Origin: Chitinophagales bacterium
GTDB taxonomy: Bacteria > Bacteroidota > Bacteroidia > Chitinophagales > LD1
Reading direction: 5' to 3'
Length of the DNA: 56,847 nt
Assembly (NCBI GenBank): GCA_025057415.1
Contig: JANWXI010000005.1
Location: 1-56,847, forward strand
Shown one piece after another: positions 6,663 through 56,847 of the stretch. Made by a program: the position numbers and the translations under genes. The notes beneath the pieces are model-generated. The model was not told the origin of the DNA. It saw nothing but the letters and a program-made list of their open reading frames with translations, and made no database searches. Within the stretch, counting starts at the first letter, position 1. Each line of letters begins with the position of its first letter.

Positions 6663-6995
6663 AGATATATTGCAAATATCAATGGAACTCCTTGTTCAAC
6701 ATACCAGCCCAAGATAGATTGCGATGTGATAACAAACAACTAATCCGAGCAGAAAAGAAATTATTCAACAAACAAATGATACAGTGTAAAGGCAATGAGT
6801 TTTAAGCGCACGAGGGTTTACAAACTGTTTCATGCTAAAGAAATTGAGTTTAAAATTTTATTCAGTCACATAAACACCTCGTAAAAATACCGATTGTCAC
6901 AGGCATTGCTTGAACTTTCGCATGGTTCATATCCATTGTGTTTTACTAAAAAATAAATCATTACTGAGCAATAATTTGCGTGATTGAATTATCAT

Positions 6996-7155
6996 GGGGT
7001 GCCCCCGCTGCTGCGCTTCGCAGGGCTACGCGCTGCAGCGGGGTCGGGCTGGCTACGGGGTACGCTTCGCTCCCGCCGCGCCCGCACATGGGTTGTATTT
7101 CAACGGCGCGGGCGCGGCCGCTTCGCTGCGCTTGCGCCCTACGCATCCCTCACCC
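6996..7155 (+). repeat. GC-rich multi-hairpin intergenic repeat, copy A
   Basis: Starts ggggtgcccccgctgc; hairpin 1 7003-7043 (ccccgctgc/gcagcgggg), hairpin 2 7076-7117 (ccgcgcccgc/gcgggcgcgg); ends gcatccctcaccc as in copy B (reverse complement). Confidence 0.85.
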
Positions 7156-7259
7156 AAACAGACGCTCCGGCAGGCCTCGTTTTTTGCAAAGCAACACACG
7201 GTGAGTAGGTGTGGTTGTAATAATTTGTATAATGAATAAATCTAATGTGATAATTGAAT

Positions 7260-7479
7260 TTTCTGGGCGCGCGCCTTTGGCGCGCGCCCAGAAATCTTCA
7301 TTCAACCAAACCTTACAGCAACTGCCCTGCGTGCCGCCTGTGGCGGCTCGCAGGGTCACGGCTAATATCCCCATTCAGTTATAATCCTACGCTCGCGCTA
7401 CAGGCGCAGACACGGAGAAATATCGCACCGTTAAAACTCTGAACAACCTCACGGGTCGCCCGCCCAAGGGCGGGCGACC
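7260..7479. repeat. Run of additional strong GC-rich inverted repeats downstream of copy A
   Basis: Hairpins 7260-7294 (tttctgggcgcgcgcc/ggcgcgcgcccagaaa, loop ttt), 7325-7355 (ccctgcg t gccgcc/ggcggc t cgcaggg, loop tgt), 7454-7479 (ggtcgcccgccc/gggcgggcgacc). Confidence 0.8.
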
Positions 7480-39660: not shown

Positions 39661-39795
39661 AGCGCGTATGCCGGGTGAGGGATGCGAGCGGAAAGCCCGC
39701 AGCCGCGCCCGCGCCTGTGGCGCGGGCGCGGCGAGGACTTGGAGCGGGTCAGCCCGACCCCGCCGCCAGGCATCGCCCGGCGGGGGCACCCCCTA
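39661..39795 (-). repeat. GC-rich multi-hairpin intergenic repeat, copy B (reverse orientation)
   Basis: Reverse complement shares 42 identical nt with copy C (ggggtcgggctgacccgctccaagtcctcgccgcgcccgcgc); hairpins 39703-39731 and 39758-39785. Confidence 0.88.
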
Positions 39796-56731: not shown

Positions 56732-56847
56732 GGGGGTGCCCCCGCTGCATCGCTTCGCGCAGCTACGCGCCGCAGCGGGGTCGGGCTGACCCGCTCCAAG
56801 TCCTCGCCGCGCCCGCGCTTTTGGCGCGGGCGCGGACTGCGGGCTTT
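56732..56847 (+). repeat. GC-rich multi-hairpin intergenic repeat, copy C (truncated by window end)
   Basis: gggggtgcccccgctgc...; hairpins 56740-56780 (ccccgctgc/gcagcgggg) and 56807-56835 (ccgcgcccgcgc/gcgcgggcgcgg). Confidence 0.88.

Follow-up and report, generated by a model that had tools for sequence, protein, structure and literature searches.

A large, phylum-wide family of folding repeats with covarying ends in Bacteroidota, sister to Flavo-1

The three GC-rich hairpin repeats (copies A, B and C) that an initial annotation had marked in a 56,847-nucleotide stretch of a Chitinophagales genome, here called the window, are confirmed as members of a large dispersed family, at a copy number far above chance. 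The genome, a 3.22 Mb draft of 196 contigs in which the window is contig C152, carries about 250 copies, which make up about 1% of its length. The ends of the element are complementary and covary, structured relatives occur across the Bacteroidota, and the family overlaps with the Rfam family Flavo-1. We consider it rather probable that the element is a non-autonomous, structure-forming mobile repeat that is recognised as a folded single strand and has burst to about 250 copies here.

Re-reading the sequence upheld what had been said of the three copies, namely their sequences and the order of their parts, as well as the 42-nt identity claimed between B and C. The initial annotation had also given them one shared layout. 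Both ends, hairpin 1 and the GTCGGGCT linker are indeed common to all three, but the middles differ, copy A representing one subtype and copies B and C another. In addition, GGGGTG and CACCC, the sequences at the ends, pair with each other as one terminal helix, which had been missed. The parts lie as follows:

6840 to 6995, + strand: AT-rich left arm of copy A, kept in about 20 copies, with TTATTAT/TTATCAT where the core begins
6996 to 7155, + strand: core of copy A, long form of the A subtype, with GGGTG/CACCC terminal strands, hairpin 1, the GTCGGGCT linker and inner hairpins
7156 to 7291, + strand: right arm of copy A, including the GGGCGCGCGCC..GGCGCGCGCCC hairpin at 7266 to 7291
7262 to 7291: this perfect GC hairpin, 107 nt 3' of copy A, which recurs within the long-form right arm
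39673 to 39793, - strand: core of copy B, B subtype, with terminal helix GGGTG/CACCC, hairpin 1, core repeat 1, hairpin 2 and core repeat 2
to 39662, - strand: tail of copy B, GGCATACGCGC, after the core
39787 to 39791, - strand: 5' strand of the copy B terminal helix, GGGTG (inside GGGGGTGCCCCC)
39673 to 39677, - strand: 3' strand of the copy B terminal helix, CACCC
39702 to 39731, - strand: hairpin 2 of copy B (CCGCGCCCGCGC..GCGCGGGCGCGG)
56732 to 56847, + strand: core of copy C, a B-subtype middle with an A-kind hairpin 1, cut by the contig end

Copies B and C have a common stretch of 64 nt at 92% identity (I1), and A and C one of 56 nt at 89% (D2). When copy A is folded as DNA, the GGGTG/CACCC helix closes, and the fold of copy B beats shuffled sequences both as DNA (z -4.1) and as RNA (z -4.8). 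The neighbours are ordinary genes at all three loci: a TonB receptor and a DUF5686 protein around copy A, a porin and a phosphomannomutase around copy B, and a PTPLA protein beside copy C.

A genome-wide search with GGGGTGCCCCCGC, the first 13 nt of the element with one mismatch allowed, gave 256 matches (118 on the + strand and 138 on the - strand), against 2 for the reversed control pattern. A single copy used as query retrieves dozens of full-length copies at 85-95% identity, and copy A alone has 40 copies in the genome at 85% identity or more. Among 84 copies, nearest-neighbour identity has a median of 93% and a maximum of 98.8%. The flanks of different copies are unlike each other, the copies lying at unrelated intergenic sites. 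Numerous copies sit at contig ends, so that the assembly breaks inside the element. The initial annotation had considered the case of just three copies with no conserved structure in relatives; what we found instead was about 250 copies, a covarying structure and relatives throughout the phylum.

The family consensus reads GG[GCGTG]-hairpin 1-GTCGGGCTwTCCGCTnCAAGTCCTCG-hairpin 2-GyGGGCTTTCCGCTnCTATCCCT[CACGC], and elements range from about 70 to 185 nt. Two main subtypes occur in this genome, with a common start (GGGGTGCCCCC), hairpin 1, GTCGGGCT and a common end (GCATCCCTCACCC). The B type, of about 107-135 nt, has the middle ...GACCCGCTCCAAGTCCTCGC-hp2-GCTGCGGGCTTTCCGCTC..., and the A type, of about 126-184 nt, has ...GCTACGGGGTACGCTTCGCTCCCG...GCGCCCTACG... 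in its place. Hairpin 1 comes in three recurrent forms, which each subtype uses, and the hairpin arms are free to vary in sequence, with palindromy retained. Some A copies, including the one in the window, take a long form with conserved outer arms, the left one about 110 nt long and the right one about 115 nt; a search of the genome for these arms without the core gave nothing except a partial left-arm match (L155). In two Tannerellaceae MAGs, element copies are tandem or closely repeated (L320, 2811-2999; L219, 5941-6363). On the 5' side the flank is T-rich (TTWTTWK in this genome, WTTT in other Bacteroidota), a preference present in both the own-genome set and the phylum set. The strongly AT-rich flanks described earlier are found 5' of the element (74% AT over 40 nt in 25 copies) but not 3' of it (49%). 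By eye, the flanks are T-rich 5' and A/G-rich 3' with no direct repeat, as judged with no empty site for comparison.

In the fold, a 5-bp helix pairs both ends, followed by a side hairpin (hp1), and hp2 stands at the tip; two nested helices form between the tandem core repeats GGGCTw..CAAGTCC and GGGCTTT..TATCCC. The terminal helix and the two nested internal helices are strongly backed by compensatory change. At 107 loci the five bases after GG are complementary to the last five, through at least 10 different sequences: GCGTG/CACGC, GCGTT/AACGC, GGGTG/CACCC, GCATG/CATGC, GCGCA/TGCGC, GCGCG/CGCGC, GCGCT/AGCGC, GGCTG/CAGCC, GCATT/AATGC and GCGGC/GCCGC. When all column pairs of a 72-copy alignment were ranked, unsupervised, by corrected mutual information, those near the top included the terminal helix and the hp2 base as well as pair 107-187. 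A 20-pair structure leaves 96.2% of the cells of the 72-copy set paired, with 75 double changes against 13.4 after shuffling, and pairing collapses when the structure is slid by one column. Relatedness of the copies weakens the shuffle as a probability, but the slide control preserves relatedness. A set of 89 model matches, which takes in copies outside the core-pattern selection and whose alignment, being fitted to the structure, leans towards it, is 97.2% paired with 171 double changes against 32.7 shuffled; the unfitted 72-copy set agrees with it.

This is an old family, present throughout the phylum. The pattern GGTCGGGCTN{2,3}CCGCTNCAAGTCC matches more than 116 stretches, nearly all from Bacteroidota (Flavobacterium, Algibacter, Taibaiella, Tannerellaceae, Cytophagaceae and others) and two from Spirochaetes MAGs, as well as three viral contigs; blastn against plasmid and phage collections gave no match to the element. 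The core is present in 39 of 396 genomes of the phylum, against a handful of control matches. A covariance-model search of relatives, a step the initial annotation had proposed, recovered structured relatives across Bacteroidota. With this model (R1), 12 genomes of the same genus gave 0 to 35 copies each, counts that are lower bounds, as scoring covered at most 150 candidates and R1 misses the A-type copy of the window. Copy B scores 48 bits against R1, a score that is not independent, as B is one of the model's 72 rows.

A literature search for the element sequence itself returned no relevant paper, and nothing in Rfam matches the window at the gathering threshold. To our knowledge, no function has been assigned since 2010 to Flavo-1, the Rfam family that the element most concerns. 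Flavo-1 (RF01705; Weinberg et al. 2010) was described as a candidate RNA family (PMC2864571) and is counted as one of the most abundant small-RNA families annotated in bacteria (PMC9029176). RF01705 matches 16 of 17 loci with hybrid elements, found by the core pattern or by flank, and it does so at the element and on the opposite strand; copy B gives no match to it even at E 10. Both are hosted by Bacteroidota in many copies per genome, and they have in common the inner core GCTnTCCGCTnnAATC..GGATnnCCGCTnCTATC, complementary ends and the nested inner helices H1, H2 and hp2, which are supported in R1 on the opposite strand. They differ in that Rfam models the strand opposite to the element's, and in that Flavo-1 proper ends in TAGC..GCTA, without side hairpin 1 and without the GGTCGGGCT linker. 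Across 400 kb of a single chromosome from Flavobacterium (G450), Flavo-1 proper reads TAGC..TCCyGCTnTCCGCTnnATC-hairpin-GGATnCCGCTnCnATCrGGGCTA, with complementary, covarying ends of its own, and R1 detects 1 of the 10 Flavo-1 matches read there. Hybrids such as L548 and L348 match both models. Given these separate ends, the failure of R1 to find most Flavo-1 matches and the hybrids that join the types, the element and Flavo-1 are overlapping sister types rather than an identical family. Flavo-1 itself occurs in 39 of 41 genomes but in none of 14 controls. The family described here, a sister to Flavo-1, is new as a family of folding repeats at such divergence and copy number.

Could the element instead be a much-duplicated structured noncoding or UTR RNA family, in which selection maintains a fold that serves to bind a protein or to control mRNA ends? 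The strong compensatory change, the overlap with RF01705 and the phylum-wide conservation of the core would all suit such an RNA. So would the one syntenic locus that we found: when the flank of one element (L296) was searched in 250 Flavobacterium genomes, a single relative had the locus, and the same place holds a diverged element (about 20% divergence), which suggests that some copies persist vertically and would also fit a selected function. The initial annotation had looked to orthologous intergenic regions for empty sites; neither this flank nor the arms in the own genome yielded a clean one. Evidence on the folding strand is mixed. In the phylum set, elements lie in minus-strand co-orientation with genes (94:57, p=0.003), in favour of an RNA, but this genome has no orientation bias (54:68), and G-U versus A-C mismatches do not consistently indicate one strand. 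No intrinsic terminator, which would be a GC-rich hairpin with a run of T after it on the strand being transcribed, was found at copy B; on the + strand the T run lies ahead of the element, and on the - strand it reads as an A run. The published data on Flavo-1 as a transcribed noncoding RNA are equivocal: in F. psychrophilum RNA-seq, several matches coincide with 5' transcribed regions, but matches lie without distinction on either strand relative to transcribed regions, and many show no transcription (PMC9723704), a pattern that favours DNA-level repeats over a dedicated RNA. Against an RNA there are also the swing from 0 to 250 copies between relatives and the subtypes that replace the whole middle. 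Weighing these points, we regard the RNA explanation as unlikely.

The reading that we prefer is a mobile repeat moved as a folded single strand, and it is consistent with copy numbers that differ sharply between close relatives, both for R1 within the genus and for Flavo-1 within Flavobacterium (0 to at least 86 matches per genome). Our model suggests that a lineage-specific burst gave rise to the roughly 250 copies of this genome. Each copy would be a directional unit that folds as a single strand, and an enzyme supplied in trans would recognise this folded strand, most probably as single-stranded DNA, cut at the paired ends and paste the element 3' of the T-rich target. The core repeats and paired ends would be retained for recognition, and the hairpin arms, along with the whole A-subtype middle, would be free to change while folding persists. 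Transcription of the copies would be incidental. An HUH-type nuclease is the first candidate enzyme, though nothing here points to one. C5 methyltransferase frames with an element behind them are truncated at different points, which is what insertion or recombination at elements would be expected to produce:

L261, 1492 to 2652: element behind a truncated C5 methyltransferase frame
L234, 2340 to 3502: the same arrangement
L485, 1195 to 1511: the same arrangement
L498, 2286 to 2371: the same arrangement

The elements at these four loci are of Flavo-1 type and fused in frame, with the stop codon close to where a small ORF or an HNH gene begins. At two other loci (L276, 63-1122; L317, 4878-5937) an element lies between an SBD/HNH-like gene and a dndD-like 3' part, a setting that resembles a Dnd phosphorothioation locus, with gene names assigned by eye.

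For the enzyme, the initial annotation had looked to a RAYT/Y1-type transposase, and the element might accordingly be REP-like and moved by a RAYT (Y1 HUH) enzyme, for example of the Bacteroidetes subclass 2.6. That subclass is largely confined to Bacteroidetes, its cognate repeats have atypical secondary structures without GTAG, and copies of the atypical flanking structures occur elsewhere (PMC6006769). Genes with subclass 2.6 motifs occur in the same genus, and one genome (G007) has a RAYT-type gene at a distance of 141 nt from an element. We searched 21 genomes with PF01797 and a RAYT profile, and then 68 Y1/RAYT loci with the element model; only the G007 gene and one in G010 (about 1.2 kb away) have an element within 1.5 kb, and neither is flanked by it. 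The G007 gene is bracketed by inverted repeats of its own (GGCGCAAGAATGAAGC..), and we take its proximity to be coincidence. This gene (L184, G007:C1, about 1450-2090) has a degenerate HuH motif (SHAH), and its own repeats are about 45 nt long. Seen from the element, Y1 genes lie near 2 of 119 loci. With about 250 copies, the genome studied here nevertheless has no strong RAYT-profile match. Its transposase genes of Y1 kind are one decayed IS200 and one intact RAYT-type gene (NHIH, YIHQNP; L189, G000:C122), which carries another repeat, with GGTCTGACC..GGTCAGACC palindromes on either side, and no Y1 gene was found in the readable short contigs, considered as possible collapsed transposase units. 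The GGTCTGACC..GGTCAGACC repeat, unrelated to the element, was seen at about 1320-1350, at 1985-2005 and near 2800-2900 of L189, one copy being inside the neighbouring aldehyde-dehydrogenase-like frame. A RAYT is therefore an improbable mobiliser of this family. More improbable still, to the point of being scarcely credible, is that the solitary copies are mobilised by a larger HNH-endonuclease unit (element, small ORF, HNH, inverted element) whose end the element forms. At 5 of 119 element loci an HNH_2 restriction-type gene has its stop codon 3-15 nt from a reverse-orientation element, and the HNH operons of L261 and L234 have a second element ahead of them, but just 2 of the 30 HNH loci read in Flavobacterium have an element nearby, and the matches of the HNH proteins are PADLOC defence and restriction enzymes. 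The 28 loci without an element largely refute the HNH gene as mobiliser.

Of the label "REP/MITE-like or structured-RNA" given earlier, what stands is a dispersed, covarying, phylum-wide repeat with a counterpart in Flavo-1; the element is neither a defined REP nor a classical TIR MITE. Like REPs and REPINs with their RAYT (TnpA_REP), it is short, hairpin-forming and intergenic, with hundreds of copies and no gene of its own. It differs in having no GTAG/GGAG at the 5' foot, starting with GGGCGTG/GGGGTG and then hairpin 1, in its longer composite fold of two hairpins and closing helices and, compared with a REPtron, in that RAYT genes are not flanked by it. Unlike the termini of a TIR MITE moved by a DDE transposase, its complementary ends have different sequences in different lineages, the changes compensating each other. 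On a general comparison, the element resembles miniature elements derived from IS200/IS605 in being directional, in folding as a single strand and in its T-rich 5' target, and by eye its flanks show no obvious target duplication; the 5' end, ahead of hairpin 1, can pair with the 3' end in a way reminiscent of IS200/IS605 guide and cleavage sequences. Unlike IS200/IS605, no matching IS ends were seen, and the genome holds only the decayed IS200 gene. Single-strand transposition often shows a replication-strand bias, but Flavo-1 in G450 has none (8 leading versus 7 lagging, a small test on a sampled half chromosome plus the listed matches, with the origin inferred from GC skew); the GC skew of the present genome is too weak for such a test. 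Streptococcal BOX elements are dispersed, non-coding and built of modular hairpin units in mixed combinations, and the element is like them in these general respects, but its sequence is unrelated and its terminal and internal nested helices are specific to its family.

We tentatively suggest, as a possibility to which we give somewhat less than even credence, that Flavo-1 and the element form one ancient superfamily of non-autonomous mobile DNA, moved as a folded single strand by a kind of enzyme not yet linked to such repeats (neither RAYT nor IS200 TnpA). Model R1 and the end rule GNNNN..NNNNC permit the annotation of the family across the phylum. The repeat helps explain breaks in assemblies such as that of this genome, and it marks truncated restriction-modification genes. 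Once Flavo-1 is placed within a mobile-like repeat that spans the phylum and has covarying ends, as one of its branches, the question of its function becomes testable. If the superfamily reading is true, a widely annotated "small RNA" of Bacteroidota would be a DNA parasite, and this genome would have been caught after a 250-copy burst.
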